A stretch of DNA of 64,000 nucleotides from Gautieria morchelliformis (lineage: Eukaryota; Basidiomycota; Agaricomycetes; Gomphales; Gomphaceae). Position numbers and translations under genes: made by a program. The number at the start of each line of letters is the position of its first letter. The first letter of the stretch is position 1. The DNA lies in NCBI GenBank assembly GCA_015179125.1, contig WHVA01000085.1, positions 1 to 64,000 of the forward strand, read 5' to 3'. Of this stretch, positions 29,651 to 38,364 are shown in pieces. The notes under the pieces were generated by a model that did no database searches, was not told the DNA's origin, and saw nothing but the letters and a program-made list of their open reading frames with translations.

Positions 29651-30148
29651 TTACAGGAAGACTCCGCCACTTTCGGCAGCCGAGTCGATATCGCTTGACC
29701 CGTCCGCTGGTGACAAGACGCTCCGTTCTGGAGGGTCAGGAGGTCGTGCAACGTCGTAATGAGCGTTGGTGTGACGCGCAAGACCCTTGAGCTCCAAGGC
29801 AAGACGCAGCATGGACACCCGTTCTTCTTGAGAGGCTCTGAAGGGTGAGGCGAGTTGGATCTGTCTGATGGAATTTGGCCGACAGAACGCACATGACCGT
29901 TTTGTTTTCATCGAGTGCCTGTAAAATTATAGGGTCAGGATGCTCTTCTGCCCCTACACTTTCTTGGAGTTGTTGCTGTGTGTCTCGTAGATGCTCAAGA
30001 GAGTTCTGGAGGCGGGCGATCTCTGTAAGATGTGTGAGGTTATGCTAAGAGTCGTCGGGTTGGAGCCACCTGTTGTGATCACTGGAATTTCAAGCAAGGC
30101 TGCCTGCTCGACAGAAAATGGCTGAACGTGTCGTGGTTTGTACTCCAT
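29651..30148 (-). CDS. Small TMA17-like protein (proteasome-assembly-chaperone-like), tentative
   Basis: Short intron-containing gene on the minus strand. Exon 1 starts at 30148 with MEYKPRHVQPFSVEQAALLE and ends PVITT plus a split codon. Exon 2 gives EIARLQNSLEHLRDTQQQLQ, then DPIILQALDENKTVI. Exon 3 gives ASQEERVSMLRLALELKGL and an acidic tail ending SGGVFL (stop 29651-29653). Both introns use GT...AG and keep phase. The pattern (NSLEHL, a helix, ENKxVI, QEERVxxLR) resembles yeast Tma17/Adc17, which helps assemble the proteasome Rpt ring, but similarity is short and I am not certain. It is divergent from TspO copy 1, with 198 bp between start codons. Its 5' part is duplicated at 31317-31471. 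Confidence 0.6.
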
Positions 30149-30346
30149 CGACGTCACGTGACTGGACGCGAGCAATTTCAGGGGCAGAAAGTATACTTAC
30201 AGGGAGGGCCTAGCTCAGTTAACTTGCAACACAATACGCGGAGAAATGTCGGCAAAAGGTGTCGGATTTCCCACGATTTACTAGACATCCCAGTGCCCTT
30301 GACTAGCAAGAGGAACTCTGCGGTGACTTTCAAGCAAGTATCCACC
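30149..30346. promoter_or_regulatory. Bidirectional promoter between TMA17-like and TspO copy 1
   Basis: 198 bp separate the two divergent start codons. The segment contains cacgtgac (30155-30162), an E-box-like CACGTG. The equivalent position in the second unit is where the virus-like DNA was inserted, and that unit lacks the CACGTG and about 33 bp around it. No binding data are available. Confidence 0.5.
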
Positions 30347-31180
30347 ATGCTTTTTATACTGCCTGAGGTCCTTCTGGACATCCCCCGGAATCCGATTTTT
30401 GCAGTGGGGATTCCCATCGTCCTGGGAACGCTGTCTGGCGTGCCCATGCGGAAGCAAGTGAAAGGAGAATGGTACAAGGTATGTCTACCCTCACTCTTTT
30501 GTGGGATCTGATGAATCGGCGCGCATAGAATTTGGTGGTGCCTCCTGGACGTCTACCCCGCCTGGTCTTTCCGTTCGTCTGGACAGGTCTCTATGCGTCA
30601 ATGGGCTTTGCGTCGTCTCTGGCGGTCTTGTGCTATGATGATGGTGATGTCCCTAGTTTGCGGTACGTCGCTGTTGTTGGGTAAAGCTGATAGTCATGGA
30701 CTTGATCACCCCACGCTCTTAGTTCCGCGGCATATCATGGATTGAAACTGTACTGGTGCCAGCTGGCACTGAGTGTTGTGCGGATGCCACTCTTCCTTGT
30801 GTTTAAACAGGCGAGTTTGGTATTGTGTTCTATCTTGTGAGCTTATCGTGTGTCCAGCCGGGACTCGCAACCGCCAACAGCGCCTTGTTGACGGTATTGA
30901 GCTCTTATATGACGGTCAGTTTCCTTTTCTCATGTTCCACGTGCTCCCCAAGGAAGAGGCACTTCTGCGAACATGCAACTGATGGCGAGTCTAGATTGTG
31001 CTCGACAAACCCACCAATCACGGGGTATGATCTATTGCTCGGTGCGGGATGTTACTCACGATCATTTAGTCGACGTATTTCCTGGCGCCGTGCTGCGCTT
31101 GGTTGGCATACACGACATACTTGAGCGGTGGAATCTGGTGGTTAAACAGGGGTCGCCAGGTGGGAGATGAGAAACAGTGA
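30347..31180 (+). CDS. TSPO: TspO/MBR family membrane protein (copy 1, intact)
   Basis: Five-helix tryptophan-rich sensory/translocator protein that binds porphyrins and sterols in other organisms. The start at 30347 opens MLFILPEVLLDIPRNPIFAV, the first hydrophobic segment being PIFAVGIPIVLGTLSGV. After intron 1 comes the family signature NLVVPPGRLPRLVFPFVWTG followed by LYASMGFASSLAVLCYDDGD. The next exon gives GLKLYWCQLALSVVRMPLFL, then (after an intron with a possible GC donor) GLATANSALLTVLSSYMT. The last exon ends TTYLSGGIWWLNRGRQVGDE and stop 31178-31180; the GGIWWLNR end is typical. All exons join in frame by eye. A second, damaged copy lies at 36170-37001. Confidence 0.87.
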
Positions 31181-31316
31181 TCAAATACTATGGCTAGCTA
31201 CAACTTTGGCTACATGTCATTTATCAACTGTGCCCAGAGACAACTGTGCTCAGGGAATAGTCAGTTAACATAGAAACTGTCAGCCAAAGGTGCAAATATC
31301 ACTCCCCCTGATTCTT

Positions 31317-31471
31317 GAGAGTTCTGGAGGCGGGCGATCTCTGTAAGATGTGTGAGCTTATGTTAAGATCTTCGGGTTGGAGCCACCTGTTGTGATCACT
31401 GGAATTTCAAGCAAGGCTGCCTGCTCGACAGAAAATGGCTGAATGTGTCGTGGTTTGTACTCCATCAACGT
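31317..31471 (-). pseudogene. 5' fragment of the TMA17-like gene (tandem duplication remnant)
   Basis: Near-identical to 29999-30154. It holds exon 1 (start codon on the minus strand at about 31465, MEYKPRHIQPFSVEQAALLE), the first intron and the first codons of exon 2. It stops at the duplication junction at 31316/31317, where the last bases of the FEX 3' end from unit 1 are attached. It lacks the rest of the gene. Its upstream side ends at 31471, where the virus-like DNA starts only a few bases from the start codon. Confidence 0.85.
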
Positions 31472-31801
31472 ACGGGACTGCTCCGACGTTTCGATCCTAA
31501 CGCAGTCTGAACTCCAACGAATATACCTGACGCGTCTGCTGCTTGCATCCATAGAACGAGGGCAGAAGAAGATACACGTGATGTCTTTGGGACGATGCGC
31601 CGATCGTTTAGCCAACACTCTTCTCTCAGGTCTCGAGCATAAAAGCGACGTAAAGGTAATACGAATAGCCGCGTGTCATCCAGCCGCAGTCTTCAGGCGC
31701 ATAGGGGACTACGACAGCCCCATGACAAGCAGGCACGTCTTGGATAACGCAGGCTTTACCAAGAAACGACGTTGGTAAGGGCTGTCCTTCAAAGGCCGAA
31801 C

Positions 31802-32263
31802 ATGACAACGTACACGGAGGTGTTCAAAGCAACCAAGGACAAGGAATCCCTTAGGCAGCTTCAAAGCATCCTCTGTGCCGCAAACGAGTCCCAGACGACA
31901 CCGACGGCCAACGCGTTTACGTTTGTGCAGATTCAGCAGTCGGGCATGGCGAAATACCTCAAGGCAGCCCTCAACATCATGTGTATCATACGAAGGCTCA
32001 ACGGAACCCTTGAGCGCCGGATGCTGGAGACGCTTAGGTGCATAGAGAACATAGGATGGCCTTTGTTCAACGAGTCTGGGGAGTTTAACAAGACCCTGGC
32101 CGTGTATACGAGCGCACAGCCTCAGGCCCAGGCCGTGGATTGGTACTACACGCAGTATCGAAGCCTCAAGGCAAACAAAAAGACCGCTGTTGTGGAGTCT
32201 CTGCTAGACCTGAATCGCGAGGTCACGTCCGAAGACTGGCTCAGGATGTCCTCTGGCAAATGA
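31802..32263 (+). CDS. Virus-like ORF B, left-arm copy (unknown function)
   Basis: Intronless frame of about 153 residues beginning MTTYTEVFKATKDKESLRQL, identical to the right-arm ORF B at 33632-34093. See that entry for a description. It lies within the left inverted arm of the virus-like insertion. Confidence 0.55.
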   Translation: MTTYTEVFKATKDKESLRQLQSILCAANESQTTPTANAFTFVQIQQSGMAKYLKAALNIMCIIRRLNGTLERRMLETLRCIENIGWPLFNESGEFNKTLAVYTSAQPQAQAVDWYYTQYRSLKANKKTAVVESLLDLNREVTSEDWLRMSSGK

Positions 32264-32274
32264 TGCTGCCGAAC

Positions 32275-32302
32275 ACACACGTGTGTTTTTAAAAGAGCTC
32301 TT
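32275..32302. terminator. Palindrome pair after ORF B, left arm
   Basis: Contains ACACACGTGTGT (32275-32286) and AAGAGCTCTT (32293-32302), both perfect palindromes, separated by a short T/A run. It lies just after the left-arm ORF B stop and before the facing ORF A stop. It mirrors 33593-33620. Hairpin-like 3'-end signals between convergent genes are known in some large DNA viruses; a role here is inferred. Confidence 0.4.
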
Positions 32303-32878
32303 GGAAACCGCTGCACGGGGGCTCTGCTATGCATGTGCTTTAACGAGACTGACAAACTTGTGGTCCTGGTCCGGCGTCCAACCAACGGTCGTGACAGTCA
32401 CCTCGGCAAGATGCGCGTAGACGTTTCCGAACACACCCGAGGGTTCAAGAGGCAGGGGAACGGTGCCCTTCCTGTATGCCGTGACAAGGACCTCTGCGAG
32501 CTTACTCACATTTGCGATGCTGGCGTATGTCGCCGCTGCCCTGAGAACCGCTTTGCTGGCACGTGGCATAGAAGCCGCTTCCGTTTTCGTCGGCGGGGGT
32601 GTTATCCCGAACGACTGCGCATCAGCGGCTTTCGGCAAAGGGGACTCTGCTTTCGGCATGAGGACCGCCGGAACAGAGCGCGTAGGCTCCGGAGCTGGGG
32701 ACACAGACGAGGGCATGGGCATTATACGGAATATCTCCGTTGGCGTGGACGTGGACTCGACGACCCGGTTTGATGAGCCGCTTGCATTGAGGGCTTTGAA
32801 CGCTTCGGCTCCTATGCGCAACTCTTTGAGCTGATATGCGGCGATGCCGGCTCGCTACACCAAGGTTCTTCTCCAAAC

Positions 32879-33568
32879 ATGCCTCCACGAACCGAAGCAT
32901 TAAACGCAGCAAGGGAAGCGTGCCTTAAGGACATCACAACCACGGCAGAAGAAGGATTCAGAGGTACGTTGGACGCTGTCGAAAAGACCTTGGCTACGTT
33001 GGACGAAGAGGGCGTCAGACACGTGGACGGGGTTTCGAAGCTGAGGAGCGCCTTGGAGGAGCTGGCACGGTCCATGCGCATAGGAGCCGAAGCGTTCAAA
33101 GCCCTCAATGCAAGCGGCTCATCAAACCGGGTCGTCGAGTCCACGTCCACGCCAACGGAGATATTCCGTATAATGCCCATGCCCTCGTCTGTGTCCCCAG
33201 CTCCGGAGCCTACGCGCTCTGTTCCGGCGGTCCTCATGCCGAAAGCAGAGTCCCCTTTGCCGAAAGCCGCTGATGCGCAGTCGTTCGGGATAACACCCCC
33301 GCCGACGAAAACGGAAGCGGCTTCTATGCCACGTGCCAGCAAAGCGGTTCTCAGGGCAGCGGCGACATACGCCAGCATCGCAAATGTGAGTAAGCTCGCA
33401 GAGGTCCTTGTCACGGCATACAGGAAGGGCACCGTTCCCCTGCCTCTTGAACCCTCGGGTGTGTTCGGAAACGTCTACGCGCATCTTGCCGAGGTGACTG
33501 TCACGACCGTTGGTTGGACGCCGGACCAGGACCACAAGTTTGTCAGTCTCGTTAAAGCACATGCATAG
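32879..33568 (+). CDS. Virus-like ORF A (unknown function)
   Basis: Intronless frame of 229 residues starting MPPRTEALNAAREACLKDIT. The first ~90 residues are Ala/Glu/Leu-rich and probably helical (LDAVEKTLATLDEEGVRHVD). The middle is Ser/Pro-rich and probably flexible (MPSSVSPAPEPTRSVPAVLM). The end is again helical (KAVLRAAATYASIANVSKLA, then a short hydrophobic/aromatic stretch VTTVGWTPDQDHKF). No enzyme motif or membrane span was seen. The start lies in the 254-bp spacer and most of the body in the right arm. It faces ORF B, with 63 bp between stops that hold two palindromes. The layout would suit a structural or scaffolding protein, but that is only a guess. Confidence 0.55.
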   Translation: MPPRTEALNAAREACLKDITTTAEEGFRGTLDAVEKTLATLDEEGVRHVDGVSKLRSALEELARSMRIGAEAFKALNASGSSNRVVESTSTPTEIFRIMPMPSSVSPAPEPTRSVPAVLMPKAESPLPKAADAQSFGITPPPTKTEAASMPRASKAVLRAAATYASIANVSKLAEVLVTAYRKGTVPLPLEPSGVFGNVYAHLAEVTVTTVGWTPDQDHKFVSLVKAHA

Positions 33569-33592
33569 CAGAGCCCCCGTGCAGCGGTTTCC

Positions 33593-33620
33593 AAGAGCTC
33601 TTTTAAAAACACACGTGTGT
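33593..33620. terminator. Palindrome pair between convergent ORFs A and B
   Basis: AAGAGCTCTT (33593-33602) and ACACACGTGTGT (33609-33620) are perfect palindromes joined by a T/A run, placed between the stop of ORF A (33568) and the stop of ORF B (33632). Both transcripts could fold here. The arrangement fits a bidirectional 3'-end signal of viral style; this is inferred from position and symmetry only. Confidence 0.45.
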
Positions 33621-33631
33621 GTTCGGCAGCA

Positions 33632-34093
33632 TCATTTGCCAGAGGACATCCTGAGCCAGTCTTCGGACGTGACCTCGCGATTCAGGTCTAGCAGAGACTC
33701 CACAACAGCGGTCTTTTTGTTTGCCTTGAGGCTTCGATACTGCGTGTAGTACCAATCCACGGCCTGGGCCTGAGGCTGTGCGCTCGTATACACGGCCAGG
33801 GTCTTGTTAAACTCCCCAGACTCGTTGAACAAAGGCCATCCTATGTTCTCTATGCACCTAAGCGTCTCCAGCATCCGGCGCTCAAGGGTTCCGTTGAGCC
33901 TTCGTATGATACACATGATGTTGAGGGCTGCCTTGAGGTATTTCGCCATGCCCGACTGCTGAATCTGCACAAACGTAAACGCGTTGGCCGTCGGTGTCGT
34001 CTGGGACTCGTTTGCGGCACAGAGGATGCTTTGAAGCTGCCTAAGGGATTCCTTGTCCTTGGTTGCTTTGAACACCTCCGTGTACGTTGTCAT
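33632..34093 (-). CDS. Virus-like ORF B (unknown function)
   Basis: Intronless frame of about 153 residues; an in-frame upstream ATG at 34123 would overlap ORF C, so 34093 (MTTYTEVFKATKDKESLRQL) is preferred. The protein appears all-alpha, with few Gly/Pro. A moderately hydrophobic stretch, MAKYLKAALNIMCIIRRLNG, sits near residue 55, and the tail is basic and polar (YRSLKANKKTAVVESLLDLN, ending RMSSGK). I do not recognise it. It is read in the same direction as, and directly downstream of, ORF C, with 23 bp between them, so they could be expressed together. Confidence 0.55.
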   Translation of the reverse strand: MTTYTEVFKATKDKESLRQLQSILCAANESQTTPTANAFTFVQIQQSGMAKYLKAALNIMCIIRRLNGTLERRMLETLRCIENIGWPLFNESGEFNKTLAVYTSAQPQAQAVDWYYTQYRSLKANKKTAVVESLLDLNREVTSEDWLRMSSGK

Positions 34094-34116
34094 GTTCGGC
34101 CTTTGAAGGACAGCCC

Positions 34117-34911
34117 TTACCAACGTCGTTTCTTGGTAAAGCCTGCGTTATCCAAGACGTGCCTGCTTGTCATGGGGCTGTCGTAGTCCCCTATGCGCCT
34201 GAAGACTGCGGCTGGATGACACGCGGCTATTCGTATTACCTTTACGTCGCTTTTATGCTCGAGACCTGAGAGAAGAGTGTTGGCTAAACGATCGGCGCAT
34301 CGTCCCAAAGACATCACGTGTATCTTCTTCTGCCCTCGTTCTATGGATGCAAGCAGCAGACGCGTCAGGTATATTCGTTGGAGTTCAGACTGCGTTAGGA
34401 TCGAAACGTCGGAGCAGTCCCGTGTCATGACACTTTCGTTTATGAAGACCACTCCTCGGGAGATGTGCTTCCATGAGTTCCTGAAGATATCAACGCAGTC
34501 CTCAAACGGAAGGGATGTGTTTATGTGCATGTCGTTCGCGAGGACCGCTACACTCGGAGGCATGCTGCGGTTTGTGTACATGACGGACTTCGCCTCGTCG
34601 TATGAGAACGCAGCCCACGTGGACTGGTATATCGCTCTGTTGTACGGGGCCTCTCCGATTACGACGGTGTGCAAAGGGAGGTATAGGCTCCACGTTGCGA
34701 GGTACCTTTGGTATGCATACAGAAAGGCGCTCTCGTCGTCGCTTATGTTGGGCTTGTGTGTTCTCAGGAGTCCCATAAAGACAGCTAGGTGTTCTTTGAT
34801 GCTCTCTTGAAACGAGTCCATGCAACGTGTGTAGTACTCGACATTGTCGATGAAACGCTCCAAGACGACAGAGTCGTCGCCTGCACCGTAACAATGTGCA
34901 TCACGTATCAT
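34117..34911 (-). CDS. Virus-like ORF C: uracil-DNA-glycosylase-superfamily-like protein
   Basis: Intronless frame of 264 residues when started at 34911 (MIRDAHCYGAGDDSVV). A start further in at MDSFQESIKEHL is possible. The order of features fits the uracil-DNA glycosylase fold. A beta-strand runs into HTVVIGEAPYNRAIYQ, comparable in position with the water-activating motif (GQDPYH in family 1, GEAPG in family 4). A central GVVFINESV strand follows, then KKIHVMSLGRCADRLANTLL, and near the end VIRIAACHPAAVF, comparable with the HPSP leucine-loop motif. Viral glycosylases of this size (about 220-300 residues) are found in herpes-, pox- and other large DNA viruses. The assignment rests on two short motifs and their spacing, so it is tentative. 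Its start overlaps that of the divergent ORF D. Confidence 0.5.
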   Translation of the reverse strand: MIRDAHCYGAGDDSVVLERFIDNVEYYTRCMDSFQESIKEHLAVFMGLLRTHKPNISDDESAFLYAYQRYLATWSLYLPLHTVVIGEAPYNRAIYQSTWAAFSYDEAKSVMYTNRSMPPSVAVLANDMHINTSLPFEDCVDIFRNSWKHISRGVVFINESVMTRDCSDVSILTQSELQRIYLTRLLLASIERGQKKIHVMSLGRCADRLANTLLSGLEHKSDVKVIRIAACHPAAVFRRIGDYDSPMTSRHVLDNAGFTKKRRW

Positions 34912-35787
34912 TTCGCCAACCGCTGCCTGATATGCGAAGATCAGGATTACGTCAAGGCGTTCATCCCCTGCGCGCACACGATGGAAGCCTGCTGGAGAGA
35001 CACGCCTGCGCTGAAGGCCTTCGTCGGGGTCTCCCGTTACGTGAACAGCGACATAGACTGCATTCCTAACTACATGTGGAACAGATGGCATGCAGACCAG
35101 ACCTTCCAGGACCACGTTAAGATGGACACAGAGCTGGACGCGAAGATGACGAACGCACCCTGTGTCAAGTGCTCTCGCTTCCTTTTGGAGGCTAGACGCT
35201 GGCTCTCCTCCGGCGACATGGAACGGGACGGGTACAGCTATTACAACATGCCGCGTATCCTCGTCGACAAGACTGTTGTAGTCGATCACGTCACCAAGAA
35301 GGCAGAGTTCAACATTCTGACGATGTCTCCTTGGCTCGAGCGGTTCTCCTGTGTGTCTGGTTCCAAATGGCCTACGGACGCAGAGCTGGTTCGTCCCCGG
35401 GAGATAGACGTGCCGCTGAACACCAGGTGGCAGGCTAAAGTCTGCATAGGAGACATGGCGTGCTGGCCTGTGGTATCCTCGGGTCTGTTCAGGTTCCGTC
35501 GTCCGCATTCACACACGAAAGGGCTCGTCGAGTCTAGCATCAGCGAGATAAACGACGTACTTAGCATCAAGCTTGAGGTACCGAAGAGGATATGCGACCT
35601 CATGGGAACCAGCTATCGCCCGCGGTACCTCGTCATCACGCGAGCCATAGACGTCATCGAAATAGGACAGCACTGCACGTACATAGGCGACGTCGGAACC
35701 GTCAAGAGAGACGTGGATGAGATCGATTATCCGCCGGACTGGTTAGACGCCGATTGGGAAGACTCCCACGAAGCCCGTAGTGACTGA
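34894..35787 (+). CDS. Virus-like ORF D: protein with N-terminal RING-like cysteine pattern
   Basis: Intronless frame of about 297 residues from ATG 34894 (MCITYHFANRCLICEDQDYV). The first 90 residues contain CLIC, then FIPCAHTMEAC and later APCVKC, a Cys/His spacing reminiscent of a RING or related zinc-binding domain. The remaining 200 residues are mixed alpha/beta (YNMPRILVDKTVVVDHVTKK, YRPRYLVITRAIDVIEIGQH) and end in an acidic stretch (DEIDYPPDWLDADWEDSHEA). I do not recognise that part. RING-type proteins are frequent in large DNA viruses, where many act on host ubiquitin signalling, but no such activity can be claimed from the pattern alone. It overlaps ORF C at the start and lies 44 bp before ORF E. 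Confidence 0.55.
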   Translation: MCITYHFANRCLICEDQDYVKAFIPCAHTMEACWRDTPALKAFVGVSRYVNSDIDCIPNYMWNRWHADQTFQDHVKMDTELDAKMTNAPCVKCSRFLLEARRWLSSGDMERDGYSYYNMPRILVDKTVVVDHVTKKAEFNILTMSPWLERFSCVSGSKWPTDAELVRPREIDVPLNTRWQAKVCIGDMACWPVVSSGLFRFRRPHSHTKGLVESSISEINDVLSIKLEVPKRICDLMGTSYRPRYLVITRAIDVIEIGQHCTYIGDVGTVKRDVDEIDYPPDWLDADWEDSHEARSD

Positions 35788-35831
35788 GCACATGACGAAG
35801 GAGTTGAGGTTGTACTATCACATGTCGCGTC

Positions 35832-36022
35832 ATGGCAAGCATAGAAGAACGCACGCGGGACATGCAAGGCGTCTCAAGGGCATCGTACGACGAGTCTGCA
35901 GACCACATTACACCGAGAACCGCAAGCATGTCTCTGGTGTCCTCTGTCTCGTCCGTGGAGAAAAACACCGTAGGTCGGACAACGTACTCGTCGAATCCTA
36001 GCTACAAAGGGTCCAGCGCAAA
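35832..36022 (+). CDS. Virus-like ORF E, partial
   Basis: Open frame beginning MASIEERTRDMQGVSRASYD, rich in Ser, Thr and Asp, apparently disordered. It reaches the right end of the virus-like insertion, where host sequence resumes, so only its N-terminal part belongs to the element. Not recognised. Confidence 0.35.
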
Positions 36023-37123
36023 AAAGTATACTTAACTGGAGGGAGGGCGTGTGGCACTTGGCCAGCCACAATACGCGGAGAAATAGTGACGGGTTTCCCA
36101 CGATTTACGACATCCCAGTGCCCTTGACGAGCAAGGGGAAAACTGCGCAATTTCAAGCAAGTATCCACCATGTTCATTTCCCTTTTTATACTGCCTAAGA
36201 TCCTTCTGGACATCCCCCGCAATCCGATCTTTGCATTGGGGATACCCATCGTCCTGGGAACGCTGGCTGGCCTGCCGATGAGGAAGGGAGTGAAAGGAGA
36301 ATGGTATAAGGTATGTCTACTCTCACGATGTCTTTTGTGGGATCTGATGACTCGGCGTGCATAGAATTTGGTGGTGCCTCCTGGACGTCTACCCCGCCTG
36401 GTCTTTCCGTTCGTCTGGACAGGTTTTTATGCGTCATGGGCTTTGTGTCGTCTCTGGCGGTCTTGTGCTATGATCATGGTGATGTCCCTAGTTTGCGGTA
36501 CGTCGCGGCTGTTGTTGGTTCAAGCTGGTAGCTACACGTTCTTAGCTTCGACGCATATAATGGATTGATATTGTACTGGTGCCAAATGGTAACGAGCGTC
36601 GTGACGTCGCTCTTCTTCTTTGTGTTTAAACGGGCGAGTTTGATATTATGTTCTATCTTTTGAACTTATCGTGTGTCCAGATGGGGCTCGCAATGGCCGC
36701 GGGCAACAGCGTCTTGTTGACGGCAGAGTGCTCTTATATGACGGTCAGTTTTCTTTTCACGTGCCTCCTCAAGAAAGAGGCACCTCCGCGAACGTGCAAC
36801 TAATGGCGAGTCTAGATTGTGCTTGACAAACCCACAAACCACCTGGTATGATCTATAGCTCGGTGCGGGATGTTACTCACGATCATTTAGTCGACGTATT
36901 TCTTGGCGCCGTGCTGCGCTTGGTTGGCATACATGACATACTTGATCGGTGGAATCTGGTGGTTAAACAGGGGTCGTGAGGGGGGAGATGAGAAACAGTG
37001 ATCGCAATGCTATGGCTAGCTACAACTTTGACTACATGTCATTTATCAACTGTGCTAAGGGAATCACTCAGTTAACATAGAAACTGTCAGCCAAAGGTGC
37101 AAATATCACTCTCCCTGATTCTT
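36023..37123. repeat. Tandem duplication, unit 2 (part right of the insertion)
   Basis: Continues the second copy of the host unit after the virus-like DNA. It begins aaagtatactta, matching 30188, and ends cctgattctt at 37123, matching 31316, inside the FEX gene's 3' end. It differs from unit 1 at scattered positions and by small indels. Confidence 0.9.
36170..37001 (+). pseudogene. TspO/MBR copy 2, frameshifted
   Basis: Second copy of the TspO gene from the host duplication. It opens MFISLFILPKILLDIPRNPI, slightly longer than copy 1, and keeps the first exon-intron junction and the signature exon NLVVPPGRLPRLVFPFVWTG. Soon after, one base present in copy 1 (in the codons for A-S-M-G-F) is missing, so the frame shifts within the conserved core. 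The C-terminal exon (YFLAP then TYLIGGIWWLNRGREGGDEK-like) is still recognisable up to the stop at 36999-37001. Its promoter was opened by the virus-like insertion, since the start codon now lies about 150 bp from foreign DNA. It has probably decayed because copy 1 supplies the function. Confidence 0.8.
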
Positions 37124-38364
37124 CCTGTCCACCAGGCCGGACCCAGGATGAGGAGGAGGATGATTTGTGCAAGTATAAAGGAGACTAGGAAGTATATCCA
37201 GGCCTTCTTGCCTCGAAGTGTGCGGAGCTCGACGACGAAGGTGCTGACGGTGCTGAGGCAGCCACAAAAACCATCGATAATACCCTGAAGAATGGAACAT
37301 GCAACGGGTGGGGGCGGGGAGGGCGCGCGCTGGATAATGTGGCATGCGGCTAAAACAGCAGTGGCGAACTCGTTGGCGATCAGAGTACCGAGGGGGAAAA
37401 TGTGGAGCCGAGTATTTAGCTGGGTGGAGAGAACATAGCGCGTTAATGTGCCTGGGAAGGACAGAAGCAAGGCGGCGGTGGCGAGGGGCCGCCAGGAGTG
37501 GTTCAGACGGACAAAGAAGGGTATTGTGAGGGCATAAAGTGCTATGGAGAGGATGGTTATGAGCCATTTAAGGGCGGAAGGGAGGTGGGGTAGCGCGGGG
37601 AGTCTCGATGCGGTGCGTTTGCCTAGTTGCTTTCCGAGGGCGAAAGAGGCGAGGGACGCTGCTAAAGTGAACAAGGATCGGGTGAGGCCGTCCATGACCT
37701 ACGAAGGTGAGAATATCGTCGGTATATATAACATAGGGCATACATCATATATCCAGAGTCTTCTGAAAGCAGAAGCATCGGCCCAGGCGGAAAAGACATC
37801 GAGCTGCCAGCCGGAGAAGGTCGTGAGGGAGCCACAGAAGCCTAGTGGCGGTGAGGAGGAGAACAAAGCGGTGTATAGGGTGGGTATTCACCCGTGGTAA
37901 TGGCAGGATATAATGGCGCATAGCTGTGGGGGTCCTTCAGTGCAGGGAGGTCAGGCTGAAAGAGGAGCGCACAAATGGGAGATGGGATCTCGCATAGCTA
38001 GGGCGAACCCCATTATGGCACATCCCACTGCCTGGACCCAGGCGAGCGGGAAGATGCTTTGGCCTGGATAGCTAGCCAGGGCATGGATCCCCAGGCGGGC
38101 GAGGGTGCCAAAGACCGAGAAGGACATGAGCGGGGACAGGACATGGATGGAGAACGGGTGGAAGGGCGGCGGGGCAGCAGCGTCGGGACTGTCGATGAGC
38201 TCCTCTGCCCTGGTCACGTCGGACAAGGGCCGGGGGGAGGGAGGCGGGGTGGAGACGGAAATGCCAAGCCGTGGCGCAGGTGCCGCCTTTGAGGCTTCAA
38301 GGTTGCCAAGCCATGGCGTCGCAGGTTCTGCCTTCTCGTCTGGCATTGAGTCCTCACGTGACAT
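37087..38364 (-). CDS. FEX1: Fluoride exporter FEX (fused two-domain CrcB/Fluc)
   Basis: Plasma-membrane fluoride channel. Fungal FEX is a head-to-tail fusion of two CrcB-like halves, and both are visible. The start at 38364 gives MSREDSMPDEKAEP and an N-terminal polar region. Half 1 has FGTLARLGIHALASYPGQSI, AWVQAVGCAIMGFALAMRDP and, after an intron, TTGFCGSLTTFSGWQLDVF. Half 2 starts MDGLTRSLFTLAASLASFAL and contains GTLIANEFATAVLAACHIIQ and GIIDGFCGCLSTVSTFVVEL, the repeat of the G-F-C-G-S-L-T-T-F/S motif that lines the pore. The last helix is SFILAQIILLLILGPAWWTG, ending CTFG (stop 37087-37089). The 3' end lies in the host duplication, so its last ~37 bases also occur at 31280-31316. Confidence 0.9.

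Follow-up and report, generated by a model that had tools for sequence, protein, structure and literature searches.

This report concerns a 64,000-nucleotide stretch of the Gautieria morchelliformis genome (the window, positions 1 to 64,000 of contig WHVA01000085.1) and an insert of 4,551 bp at 31472-36022 within it. Probably, in our view, the insert derives from an uncharacterised double-stranded DNA (dsDNA) virus or virus-like replicon, of which it is a rearranged piece captured in the fungal chromosome; that replicon would have a family-B DNA polymerase (PolB), a primase-helicase and a protein resembling uracil-DNA glycosylase (UDG). The main feature of the insert, absent from the initial annotation of this DNA, is a perfect inverted repeat: two arms of 1,349 nt, 100% identical, around a spacer of 254 bp. 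The arms make up 59% of the insert (3,202 bp are left when one arm is subtracted), and the outer end of the left arm coincides exactly with the left insertion junction. A search of the whole window (20-nt exact seed, at least 60 nt) gave a single other inverted pair, of 85 nt at 87%. Below, C numbers denote contigs of the genome searched (122 Mb, 1,113 contigs), C948 being that of the window.

The insert splits the second of two host tandem copies, while the first is uninterrupted (sequence comparison, self-BLAST). Foreign replicon DNA lies between the host tandem halves and the sister copy serves as the empty site, as is expected of an endogenous viral element. At the left junction the host sequence ending in ACGT (31471) passes into ACGGGACTG; at the right one GCGCAAA of the insert is followed by host AAAGTATAC (from 36023). 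Compared with the sister copy, no target-site duplication is seen, and 33 bp of host DNA are deleted instead. Both joins are blunt or nearly so by eye, at the resolution set by the diverged sister and the copy on C198. The boundaries, the empty site and the loss of about 33 bp had been given correctly in the initial annotation, as the sequence comparison confirmed; its proposals that end joining placed virus-like DNA in one of the tandem copies, deleting a little host sequence and duplicating no target, and that the element is partial, are likewise supported. The word “fossil” needs more care, since over 1,349 bp the two arms do not differ at all and the insertion may therefore be young. The tandem copies themselves are 96-97% alike to the left of the insertion and about 83% alike, with indels, to the right.

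The insert is also a mosaic: its junctions near 34117-34127 and at 35826/35827 bring together segments that are separate or reordered in related loci. Relative to C342 and C198, a segment of the window near 34117-34127 is inverted, a fragment of a coiled-coil-like gene is displaced to 35826-36022 (its join may overlap by 2 bp, judged by eye), and the foldback is present in addition. Such rearrangements would fit replication-linked template switching or foldback priming. Dense open reading frames (ORFs) do occupy both strands, as first described; owing to the inverted repeat, part of this packing is the same DNA counted twice.

Related stretches were found on eight other contigs and, as a second mosaic, on C948; these counts are lower bounds. 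DNA searches gave relatives of the insert on C149, C198, C1048, C342, C160, C349 and C371, and protein searches gave helicase matches at C948:192746-194337 and on C270. A mirror copy of at least 187 bp is present in 6 of the 10 stretches (in 7 if one of 76 bp is counted), with arms 97.6-100% identical within a place (Table 1); among the fetched bases of C1048, C342 and C160 there is none. The duplicated parts vary by locus and therefore do not represent a single repeat fixed in a genome. Among inverted pairs of at least 100 bp and at least 97% identity with a spacer of at most 6 kb, all 5 fall within virus-like DNA, which we marked as 28.7 kb (10.9%) of the 264 kb covered by the window and 20 fetched stretches of 10 kb each. 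The chance of 5 out of 5 is 1.5e-5 under uniform positions, a rough guide because the stretches had been picked for virus-like content. Two further inverted pairs (91% and 93%) sit among the repeats of C198. No direct duplication of at least 100 bp is listed within the virus-like DNA; there is one of 66 bp.

On C198 a long terminal repeat (LTR) element interrupts one arm. Its target duplication measures 5 bp (GAAAC) and its LTRs differ by no substitution, which implies that the arm was in the chromosome first. A BLAST figure of 96% for the LTRs had raised the possibility of gene conversion between the C198 arms; this was dropped after realignment gave 0 substitutions and 18 gap positions.

The loci differ from one another by 1-30% at the DNA level. 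Identity is 94-97% within the group of C948, C149, C198 and C1048; C349 and C371 are 82-90% identical to these four and 95-99% to each other; C342 and C160 are 70-75% identical to those loci and 76-77% to each other. The second mosaic (C948:192.6-194.3 kb) is 83-90% identical to C198, and C270 is 93-94% identical to it. The ORF differences between loci lie mostly at third codon positions (3, 1 and 20 sites by codon position for the UDG-like ORF in C948/C149). The ratio of nonsynonymous to synonymous substitution rates (dN/dS, NG86) was 0.04, 0.14, 0.29, 0.05, 0.14, 0.17, 0.12 and 0.13 in the 8 usable of 10 ORF pairs; ORF229 in C948/C198 was dropped as misframed (3 stops, 32% identity) and the UDG-like pair C948/C342 as saturated at silent sites. 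Neutral decay after integration would not produce mostly silent change of this kind; it shows that the divergence arose in functional genomes and that the captures were separate or nearly so. With dN/dS as the main evidence, a diverging functional replicon lineage under purifying selection appears to have been captured repeatedly.

The replication genes are linked to the insert through C198, where sequence related to the coiled-coil-like gene and ORF229 of the window (94%), a primase-helicase-like frame and a PolB frame lie within about 9 kb, with repeats intervening. There the coiled-coil-like gene is in one piece (339 aa). PolB matches PF00136 far better than PF03175 (organellar/viral; E 0.25), presumably the family that holds protein-primed polymerases, and in PDB it matches family-B polymerases (best E 8.6e-11). 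A polymerase of the PF00136 type is what is expected of Nucleocytoviricota, though it is not specific to that phylum. The one other relative of PolB, P0002, is 55% identical over 71% of the query and comes from a 971-bp contig, length limits having excluded full-length polymerases; tblastn with PolB against phages gave 9 weak records (best E 4e-8, 31% of the query). Other PolB protein matches lie at C342:45-56 kb, on C152 and, at 30% identity, on C524; the last may be a host polymerase.

The helicase frame gave 188 phage records in tblastn, the best (E 3e-7) to mycobacteriophage genes, with 25-27% identity among the matches shown; the phage features matched there are annotated as primase, primase/helicase or polymerase/primase. 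No D5 family appears for it up to E 10 in the Pfam scan, and the DUF5906 match stays under the cut-off. The relatives P0003 and P0004 (E 2.3e-38 and 4.7e-38, 28-29% identity, 89% of the query) point to relatives beyond G. morchelliformis. They are helicases of 445-449 aa with 52% mutual identity, from public assemblies (contigs up to 28 kb, P0003 being on a 28-kb contig); we take their source tag “lgn” to mean Logan assemblies. A possible herpes origin, raised in the initial annotation, is not supported: the linked helicase resembles phage primase-helicases, and no herpes family was searched by name. As had been stated, no described element matching the insert was found in the searches.

Table 1. 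Features of the window and of related loci
Feature	Location	Strand	Detail or basis
Host tandem copy 1, bears the empty site	29999..31316	+	direct repeat families D1-D14; self-BLAST
Host 33 bp in sister copy, lost at insertion	30155..30187	+	sequence comparison
Host tandem copy 2, left of insertion	31317..31471	+	96-97% to 29999-30154
Left arm: 3' end of UDG-like ORF, truncated coiled-coil-like gene, part of ORF229	31472..32820	+	1349 nt, 100%; mirror of 33075-34423
Loop (spacer), contains ORF229 start	32821..33074		254 bp; repeat search
ORF229, without significant family match	32879..33568	+	ORF and Pfam scan; distant counterpart in C342
Right arm	33075..34423	-	repeat search
3' part of 339-aa coiled-coil-like gene (full frame in C198)	33635..34117	-	97% aa; dN/dS 0.05; mirror at 31772-32260 (+)
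UDG-like ORF, 264 aa; 3' part duplicated in left arm	34120..34911	-	hhalign; 98.5% aa to C149 over 198 codons, dN/dS 0.04
Unduplicated part of insert, right of arms	34424..36022		repeat and DNA search
Cysteine-containing ORF, earlier labelled RING	34894..35787	+	Pfam zf-C3HC4_3 E 0.022, under cut-off
Internal fragment of 339-aa coiled-coil-like gene, moved to right end of insert	35826..36022	+	94% to C198:145976-146172; aa 72-143 of C198 frame, 86%
Host tandem copy 2, right of insertion	36023..37123	+	83% with indels to 30188-31316
Primase-helicase-like frame	C198:149003-149899		DUF5906 E 7.3e-5, 23.8 bits vs cut-off 27.6
Likely C-terminal PolB piece	C198:150973-151284		by eye
PolB frame	C198:151753-152445		PF00136 E 8.8e-18
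Inverted duplication	C948		1,349 bp; spacer 254; 0 differences
Inverted duplication	C149		656 bp; spacer 2,279; 0 differences
Inverted duplication	C371		510 bp; spacer 1,013; 0 differences
Inverted duplication	C198		~1,391 bp, later insertions set aside; spacer ~1,470; 3 differences
Inverted duplication	C349		327 bp; spacer ~0; 8 differences
Inverted duplication	C270		187 bp; spacer 126; 0 differences

As to the mechanism, we presume that viral DNA would break during replication in the nucleus and be resected; a 3' strand would then fold back on a short complementary stretch and prime its own copy, giving a foldback inversion with a loop, and end joining would insert this product at a double-strand break of the host. 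Such capture would have occurred several times, with different virus strains. For comparison, passages of PMC7467729 on foldback inversions in yeast describe stems from 4 bp and loops of up to thousands of nucleotides.

The main rival for the mechanism is random ligation, in which pieces of several identical, shattered viral genomes are joined before integration and the inverted copies are overlapping pieces in opposite orientation. The loci are indeed multi-piece mosaics, ORF203 is joined to the helicase at C198, and the second mosaic, C948:192626-194337, holds a short inverted duplication (76 bp, 100%, at 192626-193112) together with a direct one (66 bp, 97%). However, random ligation predicts inverted and direct duplications in equal numbers, whereas 6 inverted and 0 direct are seen at 100 bp or more (one-sided p 0.016), or 7 and 1 with the two short ones added (p 0.035); the numbers are small. 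We regard this course of events as possible but doubtful.

Five ORFs of the insert (one scanned at two lengths) have no significant Pfam match, the best E being 0.022, and the other scanned ORFs of the insertion family have no significant family match either. Alone among the window ORFs, the UDG-like one was compared with 5.8 billion proteins, and its sole match at E <= 1 was the fungus's own protein. A match to intron-poor host families or to transposon families widespread in basidiomycetes was thus found neither in Pfam (five ORFs) nor in the protein database (the UDG-like ORF).

The glycosylase assignment made at the outset has evidence on both sides. Against UDG profiles the ORF gives P 0.0011 with the catalytic motifs aligned in order, and the two controls of this profile-profile comparison give P 0.34 and 0.42; yet the hhalign probability is 20% (0.2% and 0.1% in the controls), and Pfam and PDB searches gave no UDG match. 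The UDG family search of the genome rang in 13 of 14 controls and not on this ORF, and the score of a direct pairwise alignment to UNG of E. coli, equalled by 39 of 500 shuffles, lacks significance. Weak to moderate evidence, then, suggests a member of the uracil-DNA glycosylase superfamily. The RING label of the neighbouring ORF finds little support: the Pfam match (E 0.022) has 15 bits against a cut-off of 27, and in the C342 relative the first cysteine of the CxxC pair is not conserved, although four other cysteines are.

A number of results weigh against the reading of the insert as a foldback product of a captured virus-like replicon. The step of hairpin priming is our inference; the loop junction of C371, the only one whose loop base was compared, has no clear microhomology; and 4 of the 10 stretches have no mirror copy of at least 76 bp in their fetched bases (3 if the 76-bp one is counted). 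PolB and the helicase lie outside the window insert, and the link runs via C198 and C342, which are themselves mosaics or broken copies. The best PDB matches of the helicase are AAA ATPases (E 7.3e-6), and its naming as superfamily 3 (SF3) is an assumption of ours. AlphaFold from single sequences gave a confidence score (pLDDT) of 36 for the UDG-like ORF and 34 for the RING-like one. The double-jelly-roll major capsid protein (PF04451) has no match in the genome, an uninformative result considering that 0 of 14 controls rang either; the A32-type packaging ATPase (PF04665) has a best E of 0.2, under the cut-off, with the replicon present only as fragments. No relative emerged from IMG/VR when the UDG-like ORF, the helicase, P0003 or the helicase alignment served as query. 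The PolB scans gave 29 distant loci (4 with P0002, 25 with the PolB alignment), and the 4 inspected (L045, L049, L052, L055) look phage-like by eye.

A fungal DNA plasmid or transposon-like replicon in place of a virus would agree with the capsid and packaging results, control-less as the capsid search is, and PolB and such helicases occur in plasmids too. Against this, PolB fits PF00136 and not PF03175, the type expected of linear plasmids as of Polintons, there is no target duplication at the window, and a UDG-like gene would be unusual for a plasmid. A non-viral origin of the family is considered improbable.

One could further suppose that the hairpin copies were retained by selection: their transcripts would yield double-stranded RNA and virus-silencing small RNAs, so that the copies act as an inherited immune memory. 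In that case a dsDNA virus family would have infected this mushroom lineage repeatedly until recently, and the captured hairpins could feed RNA silencing as a memory of infection. It is tempting to point to the six loci whose arms range from 187 to about 1391 bp, in a fungus meeting an ever-diverging replicon lineage. However, nothing indicates maintenance of the arms (those of C198 differ at 3 of 1391 positions, and one bears a transposon with 0 LTR substitutions), and the foldback process alone accounts for the shape; we do not expect this idea to hold. A chimeric origin of the window's mirror arms, through assembly or amplification, is very improbable: the arms are perfectly identical and phi29 amplification typically makes inverted chimeras with spacers, but the C198 arm with its LTR element and 5-bp target duplication is evidence that at least that repeat is genomic, and a laboratory artefact should also strike host DNA, while the inverted pairs of at least 97% in the 264 kb are all in virus-like DNA.

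Several further observations concern the related loci and their surroundings. The stretch C342:38.8-84.8 kb is an older copy broken by elements, with relics of ORF323 (match at 38.8 kb, 42%, E 5.7e-5), PolB, the UDG-like gene, ORF229 and the coiled-coil-like gene. It may preserve the gene order, which, inserted elements aside, runs from the UDG-like gene through ORF229 to the coiled-coil-like gene. The second mosaic on C948, about 156 kb from the window, contains helicase sequence and an extra long frame without a known family. Weak helicase-like relics at C1103:239163-239399 (42% identity) and C47:147801-148115 (31%) are perhaps far older captures of related replicons. A frame resembling part of the second subunit of RNA polymerase II (C371:11305-11592, minus strand, by eye) adjoins the virus-like stretch of C371, and next to the C149 stretch a frame on the host side encodes a protein kinase. 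In the window, the host tandem pair is adjoined by a CrcB-type gene (37090-37695, minus strand; PF02537, E 3.5e-17), a family we take to be fluoride channels.

If our reading is right, a virus-like replicon with a DNA polymerase and a primase-helicase would extend the dsDNA viruses to mushroom-forming fungi, the captured sequences would serve in hunting the free virus, and the loci would make it possible to study foldback inversions of captured foreign DNA as a natural series. In passages of a 2023 paper (PMC10640383) no dsDNA virus infecting fungi is given as known, endogenous DNA-virus signals are described in basal fungi, and metagenomic nucleocytovirus genomes are suspected of infecting fungi where Ascomycota are the main eukaryotes. 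Judged by titles and abstract openings, the open-licence papers listed in our searches include no report of dsDNA-virus endogenisation in basidiomycetes; the reports among them concern early-diverging fungi only.

Among known systems, Polintons (Mavericks) are eukaryotic dsDNA replicons with PolB. This gene type is shared, although the PolB described here is not of the PF03175 type; instead of fixed terminal inverted repeats and a target duplication there are arms that vary by locus and a 33-bp deletion. With the primase-helicases containing DUF5906 (of phages, and D5-like ones of nucleocytoplasmic large DNA viruses) the helicase shares the Walker A region and the DUF5906 stretch, but identity to the mycobacteriophage genes is low in the matches given above, P0003 and P0004 being the closest. 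In the genome of Rhizophagus irregularis, passages of PMC10640383 describe an Asfarviridae-related region, where DNA of a dsDNA virus, PolB included, likewise lies in the chromosome of a fungus. That region is continuous, 1.5 Mb long and placed in Nucleocytoviricota by five marker genes, and its host is an arbuscular mycorrhizal fungus, whereas here we have rearranged pieces of kilobase size, assignable to no phylum, in a basidiomycete. Finally, the yeast foldback inversions, as the passages of PMC7467729 present them, involve host chromosome arms, while here captured foreign DNA is involved, without a demonstrated stem; the likeness consists in an inverted duplication with a loop of a few to thousands of nucleotides.

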